Positions 3,982-19,534 of a stretch of DNA of 59,558 bases are shown in pieces. Both the position numbers and the translations under genes were made by a program. Each line of letters opens with the position of its first letter. The first letter of the stretch is position 1. Below the pieces are notes generated by a model. That model made no database searches. It worked only from the letters and a program-made list of their open reading frames with translations, and was not told the origin of the DNA. This stretch comes from Agathobacter ruminis. GTDB taxonomy: Bacteria; Bacillota; Clostridia; Lachnospirales; Lachnospiraceae. The stretch is from NCBI RefSeq assembly GCF_002735305.1, contig NZ_PDYG01000087.1:1-59558 (forward strand), in the 5' to 3' direction.

Positions 3982-4031
3982 TAAGGTTGGAACTCTATTG
4001 TTTTTCGACGAAAAAACGGTGGGAGGGAAAC

Positions 4032-5474
4032 ATGGATTTTGAGGAAATCTCGCGCTTTTCCATAGAGCATTCGAATGATTTGATCTTGTATTTTGATGAG
4101 ACCGGGTCTGTTTTTTATGCGAATCATGCTGCAGATGCGGCATTAGAATACGGAAAAGACATCAAATTGACATCCGTGACAGAAATCTTTCCATCTTTGT
4201 TTTCGTGGCAATCGGGCCAGCTGGTTTGCATGGAACCACTCGACGGCAGGGAAATTGAGACAGAAGCATATCGCAGGAATCGAACCTGTTTCCCTGTTTC
4301 CACGCGCATGTATCAAATGGATGAGGATCATTGCATTGTGATTGCCTGTGATATAACAGAGCGGATTCAGATGAAGAAGCGCGTTCTGGAAGTGGATCAG
4401 CAGATTGAAGATGCGTTGAAAGTCAAATCGGAGTTTACGGCTAATGTGACGCATGAGCTTCGGACACCGGTCAATGGCATTTCCGGGAATACAAGGGAAT
4501 TGCTGGAACTGGAGACGGATCCGGCCAAAATCCGTCGTCTGAATCTGATTGAGCGCGGATGCCAGGATATGCATAATATCATCAATAATGTGTTGGATTT
4601 TTCCAAACTCGAAGCCGGCAAATTTACATTGGAACTGCGAGAGTTTGTATTTCGCGATATGATTGATTATGCGGTTTCCAATCACCGCACAAAAATCAAT
4701 GAAAAAGGATTGGAATTTTTACTGACGATCTCTCCGGACATTCCGGAACGCATCATCGGAGATGAGTTGCGGATTGTTCAGATATTAAATAATTTGTTGT
4801 CGAATGCGGTAAAATTCACATCAGCAGGCAAGATTATTCTTGAAGTGGTGAAGACTGCACAAATCGACAGCCGCATAGAATTATTCTTTCTTGTGATTGA
4901 CTCCGGAATCGGAATCGCAAAGGAGGATCAGGATAAATTATTTCAGAGTTTCTCACAGGTGGATGCGTCGATTTCGCGCAAATTCGGTGGCACCGGCCTG
5001 GGACTGAATATTACCAAGCAATTGGTTGAGATGATGGGTGGAAGCATTCATCTCGAAAGTGAGCAGGGCAAAGGTTCCATGTTCTCATTTCAAATCTGGG
5101 TCGAACTGCCAAAGGATGAGATTGAGGAACCGGACAAGACGATTTCGAATAACCGCGAAAATATCAAGCATGCAACGCTTGATGACTTCGGAATCAAAGA
5201 TGACCTGTGGCACTTTGGAACAGAAGAAAATCTTACAGAACTGGATAAAAAAATGACCAAGCTTGTTCTCTGCCTGGAGATGGGAAATTGGGAAAAAGCG
5301 GAATCATTTGCAGATACCATTAAACAAATGACTGCACAGGCGCCAAAAGAAATCAAATCGATTGCGCTTCGTGTGAAGATGGCTGTACAAAAAGAAGATT
5401 ATGAACATGCAATGGCATATCATAAAGATTTGGCGGAGTTGTTGAAATCACAAAAGGCAGGTATCGAGGAATGA
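4032..5474 (+). CDS. PAS-domain sensor histidine kinase with C-terminal HPt-like tail
   Basis: Soluble kinase of 480 residues with no membrane segment. Order: PAS domain (about 1-115), HisKA with phospho-accepting His141 in THELRTP, HATPase with N box NLLSNAVKFT, G1 DSGIGIA and G2 GGTGLGLNI, then about 95 residues of helical tail. The tail resembles an HPt bundle, but Asp replaces His in the position of the usual HTLKG-like helix (ADTIKQM), so it probably cannot carry phosphate. A TTG 45 bases upstream is in frame, but the GGTGGGAGGG site places the start at ATG 4032. Its stop overlaps the next start (ATGA). First gene of a five-gene phosphorelay cluster; the ligand is unknown. Confidence 0.9.
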   Translation: MDFEEISRFSIEHSNDLILYFDETGSVFYANHAADAALEYGKDIKLTSVTEIFPSLFSWQSGQLVCMEPLDGREIETEAYRRNRTCFPVSTRMYQMDEDHCIVIACDITERIQMKKRVLEVDQQIEDALKVKSEFTANVTHELRTPVNGISGNTRELLELETDPAKIRRLNLIERGCQDMHNIINNVLDFSKLEAGKFTLELREFVFRDMIDYAVSNHRTKINEKGLEFLLTISPDIPERIIGDELRIVQILNNLLSNAVKFTSAGKIILEVVKTAQIDSRIELFFLVIDSGIGIAKEDQDKLFQSFSQVDASISRKFGGTGLGLNITKQLVEMMGGSIHLESEQGKGSMFSFQIWVELPKDEIEEPDKTISNNRENIKHATLDDFGIKDDLWHFGTEENLTELDKKMTKLVLCLEMGNWEKAESFADTIKQMTAQAPKEIKSIALRVKMAVQKEDYEHAMAYHKDLAELLKSQKAGIEE

Positions 5475-6532
5475 ACCAGGAGAATGCAGTTTGGATTCTG
5501 ATTGTGGACGATGTCGAGACGAATCGTTTCGCACTTCGGGATATGATGAAAGAGATGGGATATCAGCCGATTCTTACAGAGAATGGGGAACAGGCAATGA
5601 AGATTGTGGAAAAATTTCCACTATCTTTGATTATCACTGATATCGCCATGCCGGTGATGGATGGACATGAATTATGTGCGCTCATCAAAAAGAATCCGGC
5701 GACAAGAGAAATACCGGTGATTTTTATCTCAGCTTATGACAATCCATCCGATATTGTCAAAGGATTTGAGGTGGGCGGTGCGGATTATATTACCAAACCG
5801 TTTATTCCGGAAGTCGTAAAAGCACGCGTTGAAGTCCACTTGAAAGCCGCTGAGACCGGGAAAAAATTGCAGGATTTGAATCGCAAACTTCAGCATTCAA
5901 TTACTGCACAGATGGAGCAGAATGAGCGGGAAAAGAAGAATGTGCTCTATGCGTTGATCCGTGTCGCAAGAGAAAATGCGAATTATGATGAAGCGCATAT
6001 GGAGCGTCTGAGTAAAAACTGCCGGATTCTGGCGGAGGCATTACAGCTTTCTCCTCTGTTTGATTCGGTGATATCGGATTCCTACATTGATATGATTGAA
6101 CTGTCGGCACCGTTATGTGACATCGGAAATGTTTCGATTCCGTCAACCCTGTTACAAAAGCAGGATGCGCTTACGGATGAAGAAATTCAGATTATGCAAA
6201 GCCATACAGTTCAGGGAGCCCGGATTTTGCGTGATATAGAAGGCAACGGAGAATTTAATAATTTTATTCACATGTCCAGGGAAATTGCAAATTTTCACCA
6301 TGAGAATTATGACGGTTCAGGCTATCCAACAGGGAAAAAAGGGGATGAGATTCCGTTGGCTGCCCAAATCGTTGCTGTGGTCGGAGAATTCTGTGCATTG
6401 ACTGAGACAAGAAGCTATCGCGATGCTTATTCTTTGGAAGAAGCGCTTGCGATTATGGATGTGGATGCAGAGATTAAGTTTAATCCGAATATATATAAGG
6501 TGGCAAAGAAAATTTATCGTCAATTTGTATAG
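5471..6532 (+). CDS. Receiver protein with degenerate HD-GYP domain
   Basis: 353 residues: a receiver domain (VDD near residue 13, phospho-acceptor Asp57 in ITDIAMPVMDG, Lys in ITKPF), a coiled-coil linker (about 130-165) and an HD-GYP-like domain. HD-GYP enzymes hydrolyse cyclic di-GMP using a bimetal site. Here the hallmark HD is Cys216-Asp217 (APLCDIGN for xxxxHDIGK) and the late metal-binding Asp is Gly305 (VVGEFCALT for xADVxDALT), although HHENYDGSGYP at 276 is intact. With two metal ligands lost, it is more likely a binding or signalling pseudoenzyme than a phosphodiesterase. It overlaps the kinase by four bases and is presumably its partner. Confidence 0.88.
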   Translation: MNQENAVWILIVDDVETNRFALRDMMKEMGYQPILTENGEQAMKIVEKFPLSLIITDIAMPVMDGHELCALIKKNPATREIPVIFISAYDNPSDIVKGFEVGGADYITKPFIPEVVKARVEVHLKAAETGKKLQDLNRKLQHSITAQMEQNEREKKNVLYALIRVARENANYDEAHMERLSKNCRILAEALQLSPLFDSVISDSYIDMIELSAPLCDIGNVSIPSTLLQKQDALTDEEIQIMQSHTVQGARILRDIEGNGEFNNFIHMSREIANFHHENYDGSGYPTGKKGDEIPLAAQIVAVVGEFCALTETRSYRDAYSLEEALAIMDVDAEIKFNPNIYKVAKKIYRQFV

Positions 6533-6568: not shown

Positions 6569-6961
6569 ATGAAAATATTATTAGCTGAAGATGATTTTGT
6601 GACACGAAAATTTATGACAAATTTCCTGTCCAAATATGGAGACTGTGATGTGACCGTTGACGGAATGGAGGCTGTGGATGCCTTTATGATGTCTCTTGAA
6701 GAAAATGAACCATACGATCTGGTATGTCTGGACATCATGATGCCGGTCATGGACGGATATCAGGCACTGATGGGAATTCGTAATCTCGAGAAGGAGCATG
6801 GTATTTCCGTCGAGGACGGTACCAAGGTAATTATGACAACCGCTTTGACCGATGAGAAGAATGTCAAGATGGCCTTTGAACTTGGATGTACCATTTACTC
6901 CGGCAAACCGATTGATCAGGAACGATTCGAGCAAGCGTTAAAAAAGATTGGTCTGATATAA
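6569..6961 (+). CDS. Stand-alone CheY-like receiver
   Basis: A single receiver domain of 130 residues: acidic pair AEDD near residue 7, phospho-acceptor Asp in VCLDIMMPVMDGY, Thr in MTTALT and Lys in SGKPID. There is no output domain. AAAAGGAGATG lies a good distance upstream of the ATG. Sitting between an HD-GYP-like protein and two hybrid kinases, it is well placed to shuttle phosphate or act by protein contact. The partner cannot be read from sequence. Confidence 0.9.
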   Translation: MKILLAEDDFVTRKFMTNFLSKYGDCDVTVDGMEAVDAFMMSLEENEPYDLVCLDIMMPVMDGYQALMGIRNLEKEHGISVEDGTKVIMTTALTDEKNVKMAFELGCTIYSGKPIDQERFEQALKKIGLI

Positions 6962-7029: not shown

Positions 7030-9783
7030 TTGGGGCGCATAGTGGATAAGATAGCACAAGAAAAACAAGATAAAATTATAGAGATGGTCATTGTGGTGAT
7101 TATTTCCCTGCATTTGCTTGCAATTATGGGAATCGCTCTTTTCTATGAATGGCCGTCATGGATTCCTATGTTTCTGGGATTCGCAATGGTGATGATCTGG
7201 TTTGTGAATCTTGGACAATTCGGTTCTGCCAATTTTCGGGTTGTATTCACAACTTTGTTTATGGATGCGGCAGTCATTATTTATTCCATTTTTGAACAAA
7301 ATATGATATTGGTTTTGATTCCGCTGACGGCAGTGACGGTGACGATGGCGCTTTATGCCTATACACCGATTATTATCATGTCACTGATTACGATTGTGGT
7401 GACCTTTGTGATTCATGCATTCATTTTGCAGACGATTGATTTTTCAAATCCTGCAGAATTGTTCCATACACAGATTTCGACCATCAATGCGTTGATTATC
7501 TGCGGAATTGTTTATTTGTGGGTTCGTCTCCGAAAAATGTATGAGCGTTATATGCGTCAGTTTATTCAGGAGATGGAACGCGCAGAAAAGGGAAAGGATG
7601 ATTTCCTCGCAAATGTCAGCCACGAAATTCGTACACCGGTCAATACGATTTCCGGTCTGGTGGACAGCATTATGCAGGAAGACAATCCCGAAAAAATGAA
7701 AGAAGAATTGGCAAAGATCAGTCAGGCAGGACGCAGTCTGATGTTTGTTGTAACAGATATTCTGGATTTTTCGGAATTGCAACAGGGCGAAATTTATCTT
7801 GCAGAAGAAACCTATAATATTTCTTCGACCATCAACGATCTGGTAAATATGTCGGCAGGCCAGCAAAACAACAAGAAGGTGGAACTGATTGTCAATTATG
7901 CAGCAGATCTGCCGCGTGGTCTGATCGGAGATGAGAAGCGTCTGCGCCGTGCAATTATCAATATCGTCAACAATGCATTCAAATTCACAGAAGAAGGCTG
8001 TGTGATTATTGATATTTTCTGGCGCGAAGAGGCATATGGAATCAATCTGCTCATCTCCATTCGTGATACCGGAATCGGAATGAAGACAGAGGAACTGGAG
8101 AACCTGTTCAATACCTATAATCAGGCAGATGCCGGCCGTTCGCGCAATGTCGGCGGCATCGGACTTGGACTTGCAATCAGCCGTGCAATCATCCAAAAGA
8201 TGGGCGGTACCATCTCTGTATACAGCAATTATGAAAAGGGAACCGAAATCCGTCTGGTTGTGCCGCAGAAGGTCGTGGACTCAAGACCGATTATTACCAT
8301 CCGCAATGCGGAAATGGTACATGTAGGCATCTATTTTAATATGGAGCATTATGAGGGCGAGACCAGAGATGCATATCTCGAATCCATCCTCAATATGAAG
8401 GATCAGCTGAATGTGAAATGCCAGTTCTGCCGCAATCTAGCAGAATTAAAGAGAAGACAGTCGGAGAATCAGTTTACGCATCTGTTTATCAGCAGTGTGG
8501 AATATCGTGAAGATACGGAATATTTCGATATGCTTTCCAAGAAGATGAAAGTGATCGTGGTACTCGACGGAGAATATTCGCGTGAGATTTCCAATCAAAA
8601 TATTTATCAGATTTATAAACCGTTCCAGTTGATGCCGATTGCACAGGCAATCAACAATGAGTTGGAGAATGATGCGCTTACAAATGCGACAAAACAAATC
8701 GTGAAATACATCTGTCCGGATGTCAAAGTGCTTGTGGTGGATGACAATGAATTGAATATTCAGGTTATCATGGAAATTTTAAAGCGCTATCAGATTCGCG
8801 TGGAATATGCATTAAGCGGAACAGAGGCTTTAAAAGCAATCACTTCAAGAGATTTTGATTTTGTTTTTATGGATCATATGATGCCGGAAATGGATGGTGT
8901 GGAGACTCTGCATCGCCTGCGCGAATTGCCGGGAAGATATTACAAATCGGTACCGGTTGTAGCGCTGACGGCAAATGCGGTGGCCGGCGCCAGAGAGATG
9001 CTGTTGCGGGAAGGCTTTGATGATTTCCTCGAAAAGCCGGTTGAAATTTCCGTGCTCAATCGACTGCTCCTTCGTATCCTGAATCCAAACAAGATTGTGG
9101 AGGTCGGAGAGGAAGCGGCTGTTGTGGAAAAAAAACCGAAGGTCACACCGCAGCCGGTTGCGGAAGAGACCGAATCGACCGGAACCTATTCGCTTAAAAA
9201 TCTCGACCGCGAGAAGGGATATGTATATTGCGGTGGAGAGGATGCCTTTGAGGATATTCTGCAAATCTATGCCAATAAGGGTGCGAAAAATTATCAGCCA
9301 CTGCAGGACCTGTATGAAAAGAAAGACTGGGCGAATTATATCATTGCCATTCATGGTGTCAAAAGTTCCATGAAAGCCATCGGTGCAAATGAACTTTCCG
9401 AACAGGCACGTCTGCTTGAGATGGCCGGAAAAGAAGATAATATTAATTATATTATTGAGAATCATGCAAAAGTATATCGCATGTTTTATGATTTGATTCA
9501 TGATCTGATGCACCATTACGGAATCGAGGATCCGGAGGAAAAACCACAGCAGGAAGTTGCTGTGAATCTGCCGGAATTATCAGATGCCCAGATGGCAATT
9601 CTGAAGAAGAATCTGGAGGATGCAACCTTTGAATTAAACGGGGATAAGATGCTTGAAGTGATTAAGCCGGCGCGGGGAATGGCATATCACGGCAAGAGTC
9701 TCGATCCTGTCATCCGGCAGATGGAGCAGAAAATCAAAATGTCGGATTTGATGTCGGCATATGACTTATTTTCAAATAGCTAA
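7030..9783 (+). CDS. Membrane hybrid histidine kinase with receiver and HPt domains
   Basis: 917 residues from a TTG start; a GTG at 7042 is an equally plausible start, since neither has a strong ribosome site. Order: about six membrane helices (18-165) with no large external domain, HisKA with His198 in VSHEIRTP, HATPase (NIVNNAFKFT, DTGIGM, GGIGLGLAI), a receiver-like fold without the acidic pair (about 429-540), a true receiver (VVDDNELN at about 568, FMDHMMPEMDG, EKPV), an HPt domain with His775 in AIHGVKSSMKAIGA, and a final helical tail resembling the tail of the kinase at 4032. This single protein holds a full His-Asp-His relay. The sensed signal is probably within or near the membrane. 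Confidence 0.9.
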   Translation: MGRIVDKIAQEKQDKIIEMVIVVIISLHLLAIMGIALFYEWPSWIPMFLGFAMVMIWFVNLGQFGSANFRVVFTTLFMDAAVIIYSIFEQNMILVLIPLTAVTVTMALYAYTPIIIMSLITIVVTFVIHAFILQTIDFSNPAELFHTQISTINALIICGIVYLWVRLRKMYERYMRQFIQEMERAEKGKDDFLANVSHEIRTPVNTISGLVDSIMQEDNPEKMKEELAKISQAGRSLMFVVTDILDFSELQQGEIYLAEETYNISSTINDLVNMSAGQQNNKKVELIVNYAADLPRGLIGDEKRLRRAIINIVNNAFKFTEEGCVIIDIFWREEAYGINLLISIRDTGIGMKTEELENLFNTYNQADAGRSRNVGGIGLGLAISRAIIQKMGGTISVYSNYEKGTEIRLVVPQKVVDSRPIITIRNAEMVHVGIYFNMEHYEGETRDAYLESILNMKDQLNVKCQFCRNLAELKRRQSENQFTHLFISSVEYREDTEYFDMLSKKMKVIVVLDGEYSREISNQNIYQIYKPFQLMPIAQAINNELENDALTNATKQIVKYICPDVKVLVVDDNELNIQVIMEILKRYQIRVEYALSGTEALKAITSRDFDFVFMDHMMPEMDGVETLHRLRELPGRYYKSVPVVALTANAVAGAREMLLREGFDDFLEKPVEISVLNRLLLRILNPNKIVEVGEEAAVVEKKPKVTPQPVAEETESTGTYSLKNLDREKGYVYCGGEDAFEDILQIYANKGAKNYQPLQDLYEKKDWANYIIAIHGVKSSMKAIGANELSEQARLLEMAGKEDNINYIIENHAKVYRMFYDLIHDLMHHYGIEDPEEKPQQEVAVNLPELSDAQMAILKKNLEDATFELNGDKMLEVIKPARGMAYHGKSLDPVIRQMEQKIKMSDLMSAYDLFSNS

Positions 9784-9794
9784 GGGAATGAATT

Positions 9795-12485
9795 ATGGGA
9801 AGTACAATTCGCAAACTGAAGGGTAAATTCATAAAGGGAATCAAAGCCTGGTACTGGGATGCTGAAAATCTGAAACAACGGTTGTTTCAGGTGGTTATCC
9901 AGATAGGGGCAATTGTGGCTTTCATCAGCCTGTTCGAGACATTTCTTGTGACTGACTCCGTATATCTGTGGGTGATGTGCCTGGTTCTGTTCGGGCTGAT
10001 TTTACTTTCCCTCTGGATGTGTCTGGTCAGAAAAAAGACAAGGCTGATATCGACATTGCTTGCGATTCTGCTCAATATCATTTTGTTTCCGAGTCTGTTT
10101 TTGTTCGGAGGCGGATTACAGGGTGGTGCGACAATCTGGTTTTTGCTCGGATATTTCTATATCTTTTTGATGTATGACGGATGGAAATTCTGGAGCTCAC
10201 TGCTGGTGACCATTGTAGTGGATGTCGGCGTATATGGATATGCTTTTCATCATCCGACGGCGCTGGCCGCACCGAAAAATCTTCCATCCGCTTATATGGA
10301 TTCCCTGTTCAGTGTCCTGGTGGTGGGAATCGCAACCGGAGTTCTGCTCAGAGTGGAAATGCGTTTGTATGATGAAGAACGCAAGATTTCAATGAAACGA
10401 AATCAAGAACTCGAGCGTCAGGCAAGAGCACGCAGCTCCTTCTTCGCAGGAATGAGCCATGAGATTCGTACTCCGGTCAATTCCATCATCGGATTGAATG
10501 AACTGATTTTGCGCGAGAATCCGAGTGAGCAGATTGTGGAATATGCGAGCAATATTGAGGACTCATCCGAGATGCTGATGGCACTGCTCGGGGATGTATT
10601 GGATTTTGCAAAGCTTGAGTCTCATAAACTCGAAATTGTGCCGATGGAATACAGCACGAAGAATCTGTTTATGAACCTTTACAATATGGTAAAGACACAG
10701 GCTGCTAAGAAAAACCTGGAATTAAAAATGAATGTGGATACGCTGTTCCCGGCGGTATTATTCGGGGATGAAAAGCGAATCGTACAGATTCTTTTGAATT
10801 TGCTGAACAATGCAGTGAAATATACAGAAAAGGGAAGCATTGAGCTCGAAGCAACCGGAGAAAAACTGGAAAATGGTACCTACCAGATGCGCATCTCGGT
10901 TTCCGACACCGGAATCGGCATCAAAAAAGAGAATCTTGCGACAATCTATGATTCTTTCCGGAAGAGTGCAAAAGAGACGCAGGGCTGGTTTGAAGGAAAC
11001 GGACTGGGGCTGTCAATTGTCAAAGAACTCGTGGAATTGATGGACGGAACCATCAAACTCGACAGTGTCTATACCAAAGGCTCCGTGTTTACAGTGACAT
11101 TGCCGCAGAAAGTGGTGGAGCATACTCCTGTTGGTGTGATTCGTTTCGGAGAGACTGCAGGAAAACATAATTATGAATATCACCAGAAGTTTGAAGCACC
11201 GGAGGCACGCATTCTGATTGTCGATGACAATCGCATGAATTCCATGGTGACGAGCCGACTCCTGGCTGCAACGCGTATGCAGATTTATTCCGCGATGAGT
11301 GGAAAGGAATGTCTCGAACTGACGCGGCGTAAATTTTTCCATGTCATTTTGATGGATTATATGATGCCGGATATGGACGGTGTGGAGACGATGCGTGAGA
11401 TTCGCCGTCAGGAAAACGGATTGTGTAAAGAATCCCCAATCATTGCAGTCACGACAATGACAAGGGAAGAAGCAGAGGCTGCAGATGTGGAAGTGGGATT
11501 TGACGGCTATCTTGAAAAGCCGATTCGTTCGGAAGTCCTTGAGAGCGAAATTCTCAATCATCTGCCACAGGAAATTGTCATTTATAAAAAAGAAAAGATT
11601 GATAATTCTTTGACCGACAAAAATGGTGCAAGTGTGCGCCGACGCAAAAAGGTCCGCATTACAACAGACTGCGTCAGCGATCTGCCGAAAGAGATGGTCG
11701 AAAAATACGGCATCCATGTCATGAATCTGTATATTCGGACCGACAAAGGCAGATTCATCGATTCTGTGGAGATTGATTCAGATAATATGTCTGATTATAT
11801 CCGCAATGAAAAAGTTCATATGGACAGCTGCTCGGTGGAAGAATTTGAGACCTTCTTTGCAGATAATCTGATGGAGGCAATTGATGTCATTCATATTTCG
11901 ATGGCGAGCAATGCCGGCGTGACATATTCCCGCGCGTTGGAAGCAGCAAGGGGATTTGATTATGTACATGTATATGATTCGGAAAATATTTCGGCAGGAG
12001 AAGCCTTGCTGGTATTGGAGGCAGCACGCCTTGCCAGCTTTGGAAAGAGTGTGGACGAAATCATAGAGGCACTGGATCATTATAAACCGGTTGTCGACAA
12101 TGGATTTGTGATGCATGATCTCGATCAGTTCAGCATGCAGGGATATACCAAGCGCTCACTGGCACATTTGGCCAGAACCTTCCATTTGCATCCTGTGATG
12201 AAAATGAAGCGGAAGACCATCGCGGTGAGCTCGTTTATGACAGGTGAGAAAGAGCACCTGTGGCGTAAATATATTTCGATGCGTTTGCATAAGACCAGGC
12301 GCATCGATCCGCGCGTCATCATTGTATCATTTGCAGGCTGTACTTCGTTCCAGCGCAATTATGTAATGGAGGAGATTTCCAAGAGAATCAACTTCGAGTC
12401 TGTGATTGTATGCAAGAGTTCTTTCTCAAGTGCGGTTGCCAGCGGAGAGGGAACATTCGGAATTGCATTTTTTGAAAAAATATAG
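9795..12485 (+). CDS. Membrane hybrid histidine kinase-receiver fused to a DegV domain
   Basis: 896 residues. Order: about six membrane helices (20-190), HisKA with His222 in MSHEIRTP, HATPase (NLLNNAVKYT, DTGIGI, GNGLGLSI), receiver (VDDNRMN, Asp521 in MDYMMPDMDG, EKPI at about 570), a short linker, then a complete DegV domain (about 617-896). The DegV part begins RITTDCVSDLPKEMVEKYG and has SMASNAGVTYSRA, matching the family SSxxSGTYxSA ligand loop, and the central VYDSENISAGEALLVLEAARLA. DegV proteins bind a fatty acid, and FakB members present it to a kinase. The fusion suggests lipid-responsive signalling or receiver control of lipid binding; both are inference. AAGGGA lies seven bases before the ATG. 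Last gene of the cluster, ending in a bidirectional terminator. Confidence 0.9.
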   Translation: MGSTIRKLKGKFIKGIKAWYWDAENLKQRLFQVVIQIGAIVAFISLFETFLVTDSVYLWVMCLVLFGLILLSLWMCLVRKKTRLISTLLAILLNIILFPSLFLFGGGLQGGATIWFLLGYFYIFLMYDGWKFWSSLLVTIVVDVGVYGYAFHHPTALAAPKNLPSAYMDSLFSVLVVGIATGVLLRVEMRLYDEERKISMKRNQELERQARARSSFFAGMSHEIRTPVNSIIGLNELILRENPSEQIVEYASNIEDSSEMLMALLGDVLDFAKLESHKLEIVPMEYSTKNLFMNLYNMVKTQAAKKNLELKMNVDTLFPAVLFGDEKRIVQILLNLLNNAVKYTEKGSIELEATGEKLENGTYQMRISVSDTGIGIKKENLATIYDSFRKSAKETQGWFEGNGLGLSIVKELVELMDGTIKLDSVYTKGSVFTVTLPQKVVEHTPVGVIRFGETAGKHNYEYHQKFEAPEARILIVDDNRMNSMVTSRLLAATRMQIYSAMSGKECLELTRRKFFHVILMDYMMPDMDGVETMREIRRQENGLCKESPIIAVTTMTREEAEAADVEVGFDGYLEKPIRSEVLESEILNHLPQEIVIYKKEKIDNSLTDKNGASVRRRKKVRITTDCVSDLPKEMVEKYGIHVMNLYIRTDKGRFIDSVEIDSDNMSDYIRNEKVHMDSCSVEEFETFFADNLMEAIDVIHISMASNAGVTYSRALEAARGFDYVHVYDSENISAGEALLVLEAARLASFGKSVDEIIEALDHYKPVVDNGFVMHDLDQFSMQGYTKRSLAHLARTFHLHPVMKMKRKTIAVSSFMTGEKEHLWRKYISMRLHKTRRIDPRVIIVSFAGCTSFQRNYVMEEISKRINFESVIVCKSSFSSAVASGEGTFGIAFFEKI

Positions 12486-12487
12486 CG

Positions 12488-12519
12488 CAAAAAAAGAGAG
12501 GCATTTGCCTCTCTTTTTT
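12488..12519. terminator. Bidirectional terminator between convergent genes
   Basis: GAGAGGC at 12496-12502 pairs with 12507-12513 around ATTT, flanked by five or more A on the left and six T on the right. It serves the kinase-DegV gene (+) and the DtxR-type gene (-), whose stop overlaps the T-run. Confidence 0.9.
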
Positions 12520-12889
12520 ATGCTCTTGAACGATTTAAATATGATTTTAGTGCCGCAAATGTTTCGGCGCTAATAACATGTTCGATGCGACAGGCATCTT
12601 CTTCGGCTACAGTCGGATCAACGCCGATTTCGGTGAAAAATTTGGTGATGAATTCGTGGCGCTCATAAATGCTTTCTGCGATATCTTTTCCACTGTCGGT
12701 CAGATAAATAAAGCCTGCGTCGGTTACGGTGATATGACCTTTTTCTCGAAGATTTTTCATTGCAATACTGACGGAAGATTTCTTGAATCCCAGTTCGTTT
12801 GCAACATCAACGGAACGAACAACGGGGAGACGGCGGCTTAAAACCAATATGGTCTCCAGATAATTTTCTGCGGATTCATTATTTTGCAT
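12518..12889 (-). CDS. DtxR/MntR-family metal-dependent repressor
   Basis: 123 residues: an N-terminal winged helix (RSVDVANELGFKKSSVSIAMKNL, then the wing) followed by a short dimerisation and metal-binding region. The segment EEDACRIEHVIS aligns with the DtxR iron-site segment that supplies Cys102, Glu105 and His106, and HEF at the start of the dimer helix supplies another His, so Fe or Mn sensing is likely. There is no SH3-like third domain. GGAGG on the minus strand is eight bases from the ATG at 12889; a TTG 15 bases upstream overlaps that site and is rejected. Divergent from the ABC exporter, which is the likely target. Confidence 0.85.
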   Translation of the reverse strand: MQNNESAENYLETILVLSRRLPVVRSVDVANELGFKKSSVSIAMKNLREKGHITVTDAGFIYLTDSGKDIAESIYERHEFITKFFTEIGVDPTVAEEDACRIEHVISAETFAALKSYLNRSRA

Positions 12890-12941
12890 GTACAGTTCCT
12901 CCAAATATTATTAGAATTTGTACTCTGATTTCTCTATCAAA

Positions 12942-12992: not shown

Positions 12993-13021
12993 TTGACGAA
13001 GTGCGTTTGTTCCTATATACT
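12993..13021 (+). promoter_or_regulatory. Promoter of the heterodimeric ABC exporter
   Basis: TTGACG at 12993-12998 and TATACT at 13016-13021 with a 17-base spacer. The likely start of transcription is a few bases before the AGGAGG site at 13031, giving a very short leader. Confidence 0.75.
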
Positions 13022-13040
13022 ATTAGCGTTAGGAGGCTAT

Positions 13041-14765
13041 ATGAGGAAATTATTGTGTTATTTGAAGCAGGAGAGAAAAGAGGCGATTCTTGCGCCGCTT
13101 TTTAAGTTGCTGGAGGCTTTGCTGGAATTGTTTGTGCCGCTTGTCATGGCAAAAATTATCGATGATGGCATTGCGGCTAAAGATACCGGAATGGTATTGC
13201 AATATGGAGGTCTGCTGGTATTGCTTGCAGCAATCGGACTGGCTTTTTCCATAACGGCACAATATTATGCGGCAAAAGCTGCAGTTGGTATGGGCGCCGG
13301 TTTAAGAAGCGCACTGTTTCGAAAAATCGAATCGTTTTCGTTCTCAGATTTGGATGATCTGGGCACTTCAACTTTAATTACAAGACTGACAAGTGATATC
13401 AATCAGGTTCAGTCCGGAGTGAATCTGGTACTGCGCCTGTTTTTGCGGTCGCCGTTTATTGTATTTGGTGCAATGATCATGGCATTTACCGTCGATGTGA
13501 AAGCCGCGCTGATCTTTGTGGTGACGATTCCGGTTTTGTCTGTAATCGTGTTTACGGTAATGCTGGTCAGCATTCCATTGTTTCGCAAGGTTCAGGCGGC
13601 ACTGGATCGGATTTTGCTGCGCACCAAAGAGAATCTGGCCGGAGCGCGTGTCATTCGCGCCTTTGCAAAAGAGGATGAGGAGAATGCAAATTTTGCAAAT
13701 GAAAATGAATATCTGATTCGGCTGCAGCTCTTTGTCGGACGCATTTCCGCATTGATGAATCCGCTGACATATATTGTAATCAATTTCGCAGTCCTTGCAG
13801 TCATCATGGCGGGCGGCCGGGAGGTATATCTGGGCCATCTTACACAGGGCAAGGTCATTGCGCTGGTCAATTATATGGCATCGATTCTCGTGGAACTTGT
13901 AAAACTGGCCAACTTGATTATTACCATCAACAAATCGCTGGCATGTGCAAAACGAATCGAGGAGGTTCTGGTGCGCACGGAGAGCATGACGGAAGGTGAT
14001 ATCATGCAGGCACAGCCATCCGAATATCATGTTGAATTCTGTGATGTGACCATGCAATATCCGGGAAGTGCAAAGCCGGCGCTGACCAATATATCATTGC
14101 AGGTGAAACGAGGAGAGACCATTGGTATCATCGGCGGAACCGGCTCCGGTAAATCAACGCTGGTCAATTTGATTCCGCGTTTTTATGATGCATATTCCGG
14201 CACGGTTCGTGTGAATCATGTGGATGTCAGAGAATATACTTATGCGCATCTGCGTGAACAGATCGGAGTCGTTTTGCAAAAGGCGGTACTCTTTTCCGGA
14301 ACGATTCGTGAGAATCTATTGTGGGGAAATGAGCAGGCAAGTGATGAGGAACTTATGGCCGCGTCTGAAGTGGCGCAGGCCGGCGATATTCTCGCGCAGA
14401 AAGGACTTGATGGTAGAGTCGAAGAAGGCGGCAAAAATCTGTCAGGCGGACAGAAACAGCGTCTGACCATTGCGCGCGCGCTGGTGCGCAATCCGGATAT
14501 CCTGATTCTCGATGACAGTGCATCGGCACTCGATTTTGCGACGGATGCGGCATTGCGTAAGGCCATTGCACAGCAGGGAAAAAAGCGAACCGTCTTTTTG
14601 GTTTCGCAGAGAACCTCTTCCATTATGCACGCGGACCGCATCATTGTACTCGACGATGGCGCGATTGCCGGAATCGGCACGCATGAGCAACTTCTGAAAG
14701 AGTGTGCCGTATATCAGGAGATTTATATGTCTCAGTTCAAAAAGGAGGGCAGTCATGAAAAATAA
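13041..14765 (+). CDS. Heterodimeric ABC exporter, subunit with degenerate ATPase site
   Basis: 574 residues: six membrane helices (about 15-300) then a nucleotide-binding domain. Walker A is GGTGSGKST and the signature is LSGGQKQR, but the residue after Walker B is Asp (LILDDSAS) instead of catalytic Glu, and the H-loop His is Gln (LVSQRTS). This is the usual pattern of the non-consensus half in BmrCD/TM287-288 type transporters. AGGAGG is four bases before ATG 13041. The next gene overlaps by 11 bases and encodes the other half. Probably drug, peptide or lipid export; the divergent metal repressor raises the possibility of a metal-linked substrate. Confidence 0.9.
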   Translation: MRKLLCYLKQERKEAILAPLFKLLEALLELFVPLVMAKIIDDGIAAKDTGMVLQYGGLLVLLAAIGLAFSITAQYYAAKAAVGMGAGLRSALFRKIESFSFSDLDDLGTSTLITRLTSDINQVQSGVNLVLRLFLRSPFIVFGAMIMAFTVDVKAALIFVVTIPVLSVIVFTVMLVSIPLFRKVQAALDRILLRTKENLAGARVIRAFAKEDEENANFANENEYLIRLQLFVGRISALMNPLTYIVINFAVLAVIMAGGREVYLGHLTQGKVIALVNYMASILVELVKLANLIITINKSLACAKRIEEVLVRTESMTEGDIMQAQPSEYHVEFCDVTMQYPGSAKPALTNISLQVKRGETIGIIGGTGSGKSTLVNLIPRFYDAYSGTVRVNHVDVREYTYAHLREQIGVVLQKAVLFSGTIRENLLWGNEQASDEELMAASEVAQAGDILAQKGLDGRVEEGGKNLSGGQKQRLTIARALVRNPDILILDDSASALDFATDAALRKAIAQQGKKRTVFLVSQRTSSIMHADRIIVLDDGAIAGIGTHEQLLKECAVYQEIYMSQFKKEGSHEK

Positions 14766-16500
14766 AAAGCAAAAAGAAACCCTCCGGAAAATCTTTCATT
14801 ATATGAGACGCTATCTGTGGCTGTTTTTCCTGTCTGTGCTGTGCGCGGTTGCAGTCGTGGCACTGACGCTGCTTTTCCCAATCCTGACCGGAAAGGCAAT
14901 CGATTTGATTGTTGCAAAAGGACAGGTTGATTTTGAACGGTTGCGGATGCTGGTTCTGCAAACCGGGGCAGTGGTGCTTTTGACGGCAATTTTGCAGTGG
15001 ATTTTGAATATGATCAACAATACGATGACCTATCGGATTGTGCGGGATATCCGCAGAGATGCATTTTACAATATGGGACGGCTGCCGCTTGGGTATATCG
15101 ACAGCCATTCTCATGGGGATATGGTCAGCCGCATTATCGCGGATGTGGATACATTTGCGGATGGATTGCTGATGGGAATGACACAGTTGGTCACCGGACT
15201 GATGACCATCCTTGGAACCATCGGATTCATGATTATGATTGACTGGCGGGTGACGCTGGTGGTGATTCTGGTTACCCCGCTGTCAATGTTTGTTGCATCC
15301 TTTATTGCAAAGCGGACCTTTTCCATGTTTCAGCTGCAGTCACAGATGCGAGGCAAACAGACCGCTTTGATTCAGGAGACAATAGCAAATCAAAAGACGG
15401 TGATTGCATTTGGACGTGAGCAGAAGCAGTGTGAACAATTTGATGAAATCAATGAGAATCTGCGCAAATGTTCTTTGCGTGCCACCTTTTTTTCAAGCAC
15501 CGTCAATCCGAGTACGCGCTTTATCAACAGTCTGGTCTACGCGGGCGTCGGAGTTTGCGGCGCAATTCTGGCAATGAGCGGCGGAATTTCGGTTGGACAG
15601 CTTCAGGCATTTTTAAGCTACGCGAGCCAGTATACAAAGCCGTTTAATGAGATTTCCGGTGTGGTGACGGAAATGCAAAATGCAATTGCCTGTGCAGGAA
15701 GAATTTTTGAATTGATTGAGGCAGAGCCGGAGACTCCGGAGAGTCCGGATTGTCCGGCACTGGAAGCTGTCAAAGGGCATGTAATTGCAGATCATGTCAG
15801 TTTCTCTTACCATCCGGATCAACCGCTCATCGAAGATTTTTGTCTGGATGTGACAGAGGGAAGCCGGATCGCGATTGTCGGGCCGACGGGATGCGGCAAG
15901 ACGACGCTGATCAATCTGCTGATGCGTTTTTATGAAACGGACAAAGGTGCATTCTTTATTGACGGACAGGCGAGCCGCAATGTTTCAAGGCACAGCCTGC
16001 GCACTTCCTTTGGTATGGTATTGCAGGAGACCTGGCTTCGACATGGTACGATTCGCGAGAATATCATAATGGGAAAACCGGATGCGACGGATGAAGAGGT
16101 GATTGAGGCTGCAAAGGCATCACATGCACACAGTTTCATTCAGCGCCTGCCAAAAGGCTATGATACGATTATCGGAGAGGACGGCGGCAGTCTGTCACAG
16201 GGACAGAAACAGTTGCTGTGTATCACGCGCGTAATGCTGGCGCTGCCACCGATGCTGATTCTCGACGAAGCGACTTCTTCGATTGATACACGAACCGAAA
16301 TGCGGATTCAAAAGGCCTTTATGGCGATGAGTCGCGGCAGGACCTGCTTCATCGTGGCACACCGTCTGTCGACCATTGAGGATGCGGATCTGATTCTGGT
16401 CATGAAGGATGGAAAAATCATAGAACAGGGGAATCACGAAACTCTTTTACTGCAACACGGTTTCTATGAACAGCTTTATAATAGCCAATTCGCACATTGA
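14755..16500 (+). CDS. Heterodimeric ABC exporter, subunit with catalytic ATPase site
   Basis: 581 residues: six membrane helices (about 15-310) and a nucleotide-binding domain with GPTGCGKTT, intact Walker B plus catalytic Glu (LILDEATSS) and the H-loop His (IVAHRLST). Its signature is LSQGQKQL rather than LSGGQ. Combined with the first subunit, one complete and one degenerate ATP site would form, as in known heterodimers. AAAGGAGGG precedes ATG 14755, inside the end of the previous gene, pointing to coupled translation. No clear terminator hairpin was seen directly after the gene. Confidence 0.92.
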   Translation: MKNKKQKETLRKIFHYMRRYLWLFFLSVLCAVAVVALTLLFPILTGKAIDLIVAKGQVDFERLRMLVLQTGAVVLLTAILQWILNMINNTMTYRIVRDIRRDAFYNMGRLPLGYIDSHSHGDMVSRIIADVDTFADGLLMGMTQLVTGLMTILGTIGFMIMIDWRVTLVVILVTPLSMFVASFIAKRTFSMFQLQSQMRGKQTALIQETIANQKTVIAFGREQKQCEQFDEINENLRKCSLRATFFSSTVNPSTRFINSLVYAGVGVCGAILAMSGGISVGQLQAFLSYASQYTKPFNEISGVVTEMQNAIACAGRIFELIEAEPETPESPDCPALEAVKGHVIADHVSFSYHPDQPLIEDFCLDVTEGSRIAIVGPTGCGKTTLINLLMRFYETDKGAFFIDGQASRNVSRHSLRTSFGMVLQETWLRHGTIRENIIMGKPDATDEEVIEAAKASHAHSFIQRLPKGYDTIIGEDGGSLSQGQKQLLCITRVMLALPPMLILDEATSSIDTRTEMRIQKAFMAMSRGRTCFIVAHRLSTIEDADLILVMKDGKIIEQGNHETLLLQHGFYEQLYNSQFAH

Positions 16501-18511: not shown

Positions 18512-19534
18512 ATGCCTGAAACAATTAGAATCTGCGTAGATGCGATGGGAGGCGACAATGCTCCGGCTGCACCGGTACAGGGGGCAGTGGATGCAGTCAG
18601 ACTTCGCAATGACATTAAGATTTTCCTGGTGGGACAGGAAGATGTGGTTAGCGCAGAATTGGCAAAATACGAATATCCGAATGATCAGATTGAGGTGGTG
18701 AATGCGACCGAGATTATCGAGATGGCTGAGCATCCGGTGAATGCCATTCGAAAGAAAAAAGATTCTTCGATGGTAGTGGGAATGAAAATGGTAAGAGATA
18801 AGCAGGCTGATGCATTTATTTCTGCCGGAAGTACCGGAGCAACTCTCGTGGGAGGACAGACAATTGTCGGACGTATTCCGGGGGTAAAGAGACCGCCGCT
18901 TGCACCGCTTTTGCCGACGGAGAACGGAGTATCGCTTCTGATTGACTGCGGTGCCAATGTGGATGCGAGACCGGGACATCTTGTGACATTTGCAAAGATG
19001 GGTTCCATTTATATGAAACATATTGTGGGCATTGAGAATCCGCGTGTCGCAATTGTAAATATCGGAACCGAAGAAGAAAAAGGAAATGCGCTTGTAAAAG
19101 AGACATATCCATTATTAAAAGAATGTAAGGACATTAATTTTGTCGGAAGTATAGAATCGCGTGAAATCCCGCATGGAGCTGCAGATGTCATTGTCTGTGA
19201 GGCATTTACGGGAAATGTCATTTTAAAGCTTTATGAAGGATTGAGCCAGACCCTGATTTCAGTGATTAAGGGCGGTTTGATGAGTACTTTAAAATCCAAG
19301 ATCGGTGCGGCACTTGCATTGCCGGCTTTGAAAAAGACCATCAAATCTTTTGACGCATCCACCTATGGCGGAGCACCGCTTCTGGGATTGAACGGATTGG
19401 TAGTCAAGACACATGGTAATTCCAAGAATACCGAAATCAAGAATGCGATTTTCCAATGTGTTGCATTTTCGGAAAATCAAATCAATCAAAAGATGAAAGA
19501 GTTGCTTACTGCCGATGACGGGGCAGAAGAATAA
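18512..19534 (+). CDS. plsX: Phosphate acyltransferase PlsX
   Basis: Makes acyl-phosphate from acyl-ACP and phosphate, the donor used by PlsY in phosphatidic acid synthesis; a peripheral cytoplasmic enzyme. 340 residues, starting RICVDAMGGDNAPAAPVQG, with GSTGATLVGGQ, a conserved ALLP-like segment (PLLPTENG), DCGANVDARP and the C-terminal YGGAPLLGLNG. GGGAGGTG precedes the ATG. Followed by acpP, and plsY occurs later in the window at 44685. Confidence 0.96.
   Translation: MPETIRICVDAMGGDNAPAAPVQGAVDAVRLRNDIKIFLVGQEDVVSAELAKYEYPNDQIEVVNATEIIEMAEHPVNAIRKKKDSSMVVGMKMVRDKQADAFISAGSTGATLVGGQTIVGRIPGVKRPPLAPLLPTENGVSLLIDCGANVDARPGHLVTFAKMGSIYMKHIVGIENPRVAIVNIGTEEEKGNALVKETYPLLKECKDINFVGSIESREIPHGAADVIVCEAFTGNVILKLYEGLSQTLISVIKGGLMSTLKSKIGAALALPALKKTIKSFDASTYGGAPLLGLNGLVVKTHGNSKNTEIKNAIFQCVAFSENQINQKMKELLTADDGAEE

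Follow-up and report, generated by a model that had tools for sequence, protein, structure and literature searches.

A DegV domain joined to a hybrid histidine kinase in Agathobacter ruminis, a candidate regulatory part of a two-kinase, one-HPt phosphorelay

Introduction

This study concerns a gene of Agathobacter ruminis (Lachnospiraceae) in which a membrane-bound hybrid histidine kinase and a DegV domain are joined in one protein. The gene occupies positions 9795-12485 of a stretch of 59,558 nucleotides (contig NZ_PDYG01000087.1 of assembly GCF_002735305.1), here called the window. The usual view of DegV proteins is that they carry fatty acids for the fatty-acid kinase FakA. We propose that the DegV fold of this protein and its relatives has been freed from the fatty-acid kinase and has become a regulatory, probably ligand-sensing, part of a phosphorelay with two kinases and a single HPt domain. 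Taken as a whole, we give this proposal an even chance of being right. Its basis is present in the sequences: the domains, the paired genes with their one HPt, the lost residues and the single clade, together with a predicted fold. We infer how phosphate flows, that a ligand is bound, which way control runs and that the output is cyclic-di-GMP.

Results

Domains of the DegV kinase

The gene and its parts are as follows.

9795..12485, + strand: hybrid histidine kinase with a C-terminal DegV domain, 896 aa (open reading frame and Pfam)
9864..10364, + strand: membrane region, residues 24-190, with four clear and two weaker helices (hydropathy, helices of the structure model)
10428..10622, + strand: HisKA dimerisation domain, phospho-acceptor His222 at 10458-10460 (Pfam; invariant in 20 aligned sequences)
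10764..11111, + strand: HATPase_c domain (Pfam; G-box residues invariant)
11211..11549, + strand: receiver domain, phospho-acceptor Asp521 at 11355-11357 (Pfam; invariant in 20 aligned sequences)
11649..12476, + strand: DegV domain of the signalling clade, with 0/5 FakB hallmark residues (Pfam, predicted fold, residues, tree)

The single frame encodes 896 residues and has 0 internal stops. Pfam matches over the curated cut-offs were obtained for HisKA (residues 212-276), HATPase_c (324-439), Response_reg (473-585) and DegV (619-894), in agreement with the initial annotation, which had described one open frame with a complete kinase, a complete receiver (Asp521) and a full-length DegV domain at the C-terminus. 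The DegV match (PF02645) scored 128.3 bits against a cut-off of 27 (E 4.5e-37) and covered positions 1-279 of the 280 in the profile. The NCBIfam domain model TIGR00762 scored 135.8 bits (cut-off 99.7), and the DegV domain was the only NCBIfam name over its cut-off; among the 25 matches listed, the kinase equivalogs fell far under theirs. His222, the glycines of the ATPase G-box, Asp478, Asp521 and Lys575 were invariant in the 20 aligned sequences, the window protein included. The protein therefore has everything expected of a hybrid histidine kinase, namely the HisKA histidine, the HATPase boxes, and the receiver aspartate and lysine.

Hydropathy gave four clear membrane helices (residues 33-51, 60-78, 84-102 and 171-189), and the structure model added helices at 112-126 and 129-152. 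The six helices originally proposed are thus plausible, four of them clear and two weak. An EDD/DegV fold was predicted for the DegV domain, and the prediction was good throughout the domain.

Loss of the FakB residues

Broussard et al. are said to have assigned roles to five FakB2 residues in 2016: Thr61, Ser93 and His266 bind the head of the fatty acid, Arg170 is there for the acyl-phosphate, and FakA is bound by Arg202. These roles are backed by the title of entry 4x9x and by passages of PMC8892158. In those passages Thr62, Ser95, His270, Arg173 and Arg205 of FakB1 have such roles, and both arginines are completely conserved (PMC8892158); FakB1 positions were equated with FakB2 positions by our own mapping. 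Residue columns were anchored on motifs of B. subtilis DegV, and from the shared Pro800 to position 202 the alignment showed no gap by eye.

The window protein has Met676 in place of Thr61, Gly708 in place of Ser93, Tyr784 in place of Arg170, Thr816 in place of Arg202 and Ala882 in place of His266, so that 0/5 residues are kept. Neither the FakB head-group network (Thr61, Ser93, His266) nor the pair of arginines for the acyl-phosphate and the FakA contact is present. The initial annotation held that the ligand-loop residues were kept, which is contradicted by these positions. With the residues for the head group, the acyl-phosphate and the FakA contact all missing, the window DegV is no carrier of the FakB type attached to a kinase.

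Relatives were divided into signalling and standalone DegV rows. The signalling label follows the profile score with one exception, L088, which scored 223 bits but was assigned manually to the standalone group, as all five residues are kept in it; no kinase lies beside its gene. The signalling rows with gene context, the window protein included and L088 left out, numbered 80. They keep Thr61 in 7/80, Ser93 in 51/80, Arg170 in 29/80, Arg202 in 1/80 and His266 in 1/80 (Arg202 and His266 each in 2/81 if L088 is counted), and position 266 is Asn in 73/80. None of the five residues is kept in 19/80 rows, and the most kept in any row is three. Standalone rows keep Thr61 in 32/36, Ser93 and Arg170 in 36/36 each, Arg202 in 32/36 (with Lys in three more) and His266 in 34/36; the standalone loci L032, L107, L113 and L125 failed the filters and were not counted here. 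The window's own genome has five standalone copies, four with His266 and one with Tyr at that position, and three standalone high scorers at the phylum level (L129, L130, L132) keep all five residues.

A different set of residues, Thr649, Phe654, Glu659, His799, Phe867 and Ser876 in window numbering, is specific to the signalling rows, being conserved in at least 52/61 of them and not in standalone DegV. They may belong to a new ligand site or form an interface.

A single signalling clade

A maximum-likelihood tree was built from 97 DegV domains. The 61 signalling rows in it were split off by a branch with support of 100/100, and the branch between signalling and standalone rows was recovered in 200/200 bootstrap trees. 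The tree also grouped L088 with the standalone rows. Loci L084-L087 have standalone DegV genes directly behind a kinase-receiver-HPt gene. They fall on the signalling side, none of them keeps Arg202 or His266, and they lie outside the 57-row group containing the fused forms of this tree. Their position fits a path from operon neighbour to fusion; as the root was not inferred, we offer this order as a suggestion.

One HPt domain per gene pair

The gene directly ahead of the DegV kinase encodes a second hybrid kinase.

7030..9783, + strand: partner membrane hybrid kinase, HisKA-HATPase-receiver-HPt, 917 aa, ending 12 bases before the DegV gene
9202..9498, + strand: HPt domain of the partner, phospho-acceptor His present (own model; Pfam Hpt below cut-off)

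Domain calls beyond the Pfam scans were made using models built from a few sequences of these loci. An HPt domain was found in the gene directly upstream of the DegV gene at 20/20 loci, comprising the window and L034-L052, although at L035 the upstream gene is a piece cut by the contig start. In the wider set 81 stretches were scanned and yielded 81 DegV rows (two at L147 and none at L092, which was under the threshold), or 80 without L088. L079, L080, L083, L090 and L164 have no readable upstream kinase/receiver gene, which leaves 75 loci.

At 51 of these loci only the upstream gene has an HPt, at 21 only the DegV gene, at 3 neither gene and at 0 both, so that exactly one gene of the pair carries an HPt in 72/75. 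The proportion 51:21 does not represent a natural frequency because context loci were chosen partly by frame length. The gap between the paired genes is 50 bases or less in 72/75, and in 42/75 the genes overlap or touch. The phospho-acceptor histidine is retained in 82/84 HPt sequences. Fisher's test gave p ~1e-15 for the one-per-pair pattern with relatedness ignored. The tree calls for 4 changes of the HPt in the DegV gene and 5 in the upstream gene, or 3 and 3 without the three loci that have it in neither. In the two well-supported independent pairs the upstream gene was opposite in 1.9/2 on average, and never changed in the same direction. A two-kinase, one-HPt relay module is a well supported reading of these gene pairs.

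The position of DegV in this module varies. At L073 the layout is kinase-receiver-DegV-HPt in about 1,150 residues, at L075 and L091 DegV precedes the kinase in proteins with an HPt, L033 and L076 have DegV-HPt proteins, and at L084-L087 DegV stands alone behind the partner kinase. What stays constant is the partner, DegV and one HPt, while the kinase of the DegV gene itself may be missing. This constancy points to DegV as a regulatory input of the relay and not as the effector of one receiver.

Some individual layouts are worth recording. L075:808-5544 encodes a single protein of 1,578 residues that combines DegV with a Cache sensor, a kinase, a receiver and an HPt. The window's own genome has a second signalling DegV on contig C122 (L033:7595-11803), where a kinase-receiver gene overlaps the DegV-HPt gene and a receiver-GGDEF gene follows. 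L147:5751-11140 has two tandem DegV hybrid kinases behind one partner, and the second copy has His at position 266 and lacks Arg202. L080:2290-4878 and L090:2451-5063 encode DegV proteins with a HATPase domain, followed at L080 by two GGDEF-domain genes.

Distribution among genomes

The genus survey found full-length, single-frame relatives in 25/60 genomes, with 32 rows, both counts including the window's own; the other relatives are 35-61% identical. The kinase-DegV fusion is therefore not a joining error, and a sequencing error fusing two genes, the event that the initial annotation considered fatal to its reading, is excluded.

Its suggestion to survey relatives for the same domain order was taken up at the family level. 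Profile A2, which covers the DegV part, matched 155/397 genomes at E <= 1e-40. Among the matches listed the weaker ones were mostly standalone DegV, and 96 of the best 104 rows lay in frames of at least 400 residues from at least 69/397 genomes, a lower bound counted by frame length, the domains having been read in part of the frames. At the order level (392 genomes, overlapping with the family-level set) long high-scoring frames occurred in family f1 and one other, f17, and at the phylum level (398 genomes) only in three f1 genomes. A 580-residue frame in G840 was considered as a fusion outside the order and rejected, the locus reading as a standalone DegV in a long open frame. Relatives in named genomes came from 5 loci, of which L028 (SVFB01000050.1, Lachnospiraceae bacterium SIG321) is 66% identical in DegV and the other four 24-31%.

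Neighbouring genes

Three further signalling genes precede the pair in the window.

3987..5474, + strand: histidine kinase with a weak PAS match (HisKA and HATPase_c over cut-off, PAS_9 below)
5471..6532, + strand: receiver and HD-type (HD-GYP-like) protein, probable cyclic-di-GMP phosphodiesterase (Response_reg, HD_5 and HD over cut-off)
6569..6961, + strand: single receiver-domain protein of CheY-like length (Pfam)

The gene order is thus weak-PAS kinase, receiver-HD protein, single receiver, partner and DegV kinase. The stretch HHENYDGSGYP was read from the sequence of the 5471-6532 protein, and we take it to be an HD-GYP-like motif. The C-terminal part of the 3987-5474 kinase resembles by eye an HPt minus its histidine, with no Pfam Hpt match there.

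Many relatives in the genus have genes for CheB, a CheY-like receiver, CheA, CheW and MCP upstream, and a GGDEF-EAL gene may come after; these chemosensory neighbours were identified by Pfam at L036 and L037 and by our own models at the rest. Cyclic-di-GMP or chemosensory genes lay within 7 kb at 20/21 of the window and genus loci. An adjacent kinase/receiver gene was found for 75/80 signalling rows vs 0/18 standalone controls, and one within 7 kb for 78/80 vs 1/18. The stretches compared were 4-20 kb long for signalling rows, many of them shorter than the 12-20 kb of controls. There were 19 control loci, reduced to 18 because L191 had no DegV by our own model; L173 (G840) was not meant as a control, and the standalone DegV at G010:C8:74521-75357 was left out since its contig also has a DegV kinase ~12 kb away.

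Behind the DegV gene, an iron-dependent-repressor-type regulator (12518-12904, - strand) lies beside two genes (12993-16500, + strand) read as ATP-binding cassette (ABC) exporters, the first checked by Pfam and the second by eye. FakA is encoded in the genome of the window, and a PlsX-like gene at 18512-19534 of the window was recognised by eye only.

Discussion

According to the proposed mechanism, the upstream kinase-receiver-HPt protein and the kinase-receiver-DegV protein of the window would work as one two-gene phosphorelay. The single HPt of the pair would take the phosphoryl group from the receivers and pass it to stand-alone response regulators encoded nearby: in the window the receiver-HD-GYP-like protein and the single receiver, and in some relatives receiver-GGDEF, CheY-like and CheB-like proteins. 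The DegV fold, its FakA contact and head-group network lost, would now act in the cytoplasm as an input that regulates the relay; its ligand would most likely be lipid-like or amphipathic and be bound close to the membrane and beside the receiver. Ligand on DegV would shift the balance between kinase and phosphatase, and with it the amount of phosphate reaching the HPt, and the regulators phosphorylated by the HPt would set cyclic-di-GMP or chemosensory output. The partner HPt kinase, the change in HPt position and the nearby chemosensory and cyclic-di-GMP genes did not figure in the initial annotation. It had offered a kinase that senses a lipid through DegV. Sensing of something is still the best reading, although the argument from kept ligand residues was wrong; that the DegV domain would sense a lipid is what we infer.

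Several observations weigh against this proposal. The Pfam Hpt match of the window's partner is below the cut-off (E 0.0016, 19.1 bits vs 24.6), and neither gene has an HPt at L082 (a split gene), L147 (the second tandem copy) and L171 (a contig end). The HPt pattern comes down to 2 independent pairs if well-supported branches alone are counted, and to 4 over all branches, too few independent changes for a sign test to reach significance. At L080 and L090 no HisKA, receiver or HPt was detected, and no partner lies next to the gene. With Thr61, Ser93 and His266 missing, the domain may not bind fatty acids in the first place. With cyclic-di-GMP or chemosensory genes within 7 kb in only 43/80 signalling rows, vs 5/18 standalone controls, the cyclic-di-GMP link beyond the genus is only suggestive. 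The full-length structure model has a predicted template modelling score (pTM) of 0.37, so that the arrangement of the domains is unreadable from it.

The main rival is that DegV acts without a small ligand, as a docking or dimerisation surface holding the two kinases and the HPt together. The hallmark ligand residues are lost or drifting, DegV tolerates many positions and splits, and the six clade-conserved residues could be an interface. An Asn at position 266 in 73/80 rows and a Ser93 still present in 51/80 would nevertheless be odd for a dead pocket, and the fold is well predicted throughout; we think a purely protein-protein role unlikely. A second possibility, already raised in the initial annotation, is that DegV is the effector, its binding or release of lipid being controlled by phosphorylation of the receiver. 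DegV does sit behind the receiver in the window protein, the usual place of the effector in response regulators. This option is weakened by the relatives in which DegV is a separate protein, precedes the kinase or has an HPt as its sole fusion partner: it occurs without a receiver in the same protein at L084-L087, L076 and L033, and ahead of the kinase at L075 and L091. Arg202 is moreover lost in 79/80 rows though FakA is encoded in the genome, so there would be no ordinary hand-over to FakA. We consider such an output role improbable.

The DegV family match and the predicted fold, FakA in the genome and the PlsX-like gene recognised by eye would also suit a true FakB, that is, a membrane-tethered carrier feeding FakA/PlsX with the kinase reporting its load. 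Against it stand the hallmark residues, none of which is kept here and of which Arg170 is found in 29/80 signalling rows, Arg202 in 1/80 and His266 in 1/80. FakB function was rejected on these residues, and we see very little prospect for this explanation. For a chance fusion, frameshift or assembly error nothing was found in favour. The full-length relatives in the genus and the long frames in the family genomes, counted by length, rule it out for practical purposes.

The regulatory reading of DegV can also be put in a more specific form. The signalling DegV domains would then make up a new class of sensors for lipids inside the cell: carrier folds of the FakB type, uncoupled from fatty-acid kinase as Arg202 was lost and His266 replaced (mostly by Asn), that recognise a lipid whose head group is of another kind, perhaps neutral, and control a two-kinase, one-HPt relay setting cyclic-di-GMP/chemosensory output in Lachnospirales. 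It would be a Gram-positive counterpart in kind to RpfC-RpfG. We advance this form tentatively and regard it as somewhat doubtful.

Among known systems, hybrid kinases of the BarA/TorS/ArcB type share the HisKA-HATPase-receiver(-HPt) order and were among the best NCBIfam matches for both kinases, far below the equivalog cut-offs. We know of no DegV domain in kinases of this type, and the HPt here, unlike theirs, is shared between two genes and changes place. FakB/DegV proteins (PF02645, TIGR00762) belong to the same family by profile and have the same predicted fold, but the window type is fused to or lies beside hybrid kinases, lacks the FakB hallmark residues and forms a separate clade.

RpfC-RpfG, the quorum-sensing system of Xanthomonas for DSF (diffusible signal factor), is the nearest system in kind; we do not claim membership. 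Passages of PMC5391125 describe a fatty acid that activates a receiver-HPt membrane hybrid kinase working with a receiver-type HD-GYP protein. RpfC recognises DSF through 22 residues at its N-terminus, and those passages say nothing of a DegV domain (PMC5391125). The window has the same domain layout in the 7030-9783 gene (its HPt by our own model) and the 5471-6532 gene: a membrane hybrid kinase with receiver and HPt, a receiver-HD-GYP-type regulator nearby, and possibly a fatty-acid-like signal. It differs in that two kinases are paired here and that the regulators near relatives are often GGDEF or chemosensory proteins; among L034-L052 our own model found a receiver-HD-GYP gene at L034, L038, L043 and L046, in addition to the window. 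The SaeRS case likewise ties the FakA/FakB pathway to a two-component system. There the fatty-acid kinase acts indirectly via the free fatty-acid pool, and the abstract names no DegV domain in the kinase (PMC5539427). In the relevant part of PMC12688256 DegV figures only as a gene that lies within a deletion.

No description of a DegV-kinase fusion was found in open-access full texts, a search that a paper on DegV and histidine kinase alone could have escaped. Within that limit the view that no protein of this architecture has been characterised still stands. As read from the sequences, a known fold and known kinase domains form a conserved, undescribed combination with a changed residue signature. 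A whole branch of DegV appears to have left the role of FakA carrier and joined a kinase module, its signature being no Arg202 and mostly Asn at position 266. For lipid sensing in Lachnospiraceae-type bacteria it offers a candidate that can be tested directly, and it gives what may be an example of a shared HPt domain moving within an operon.
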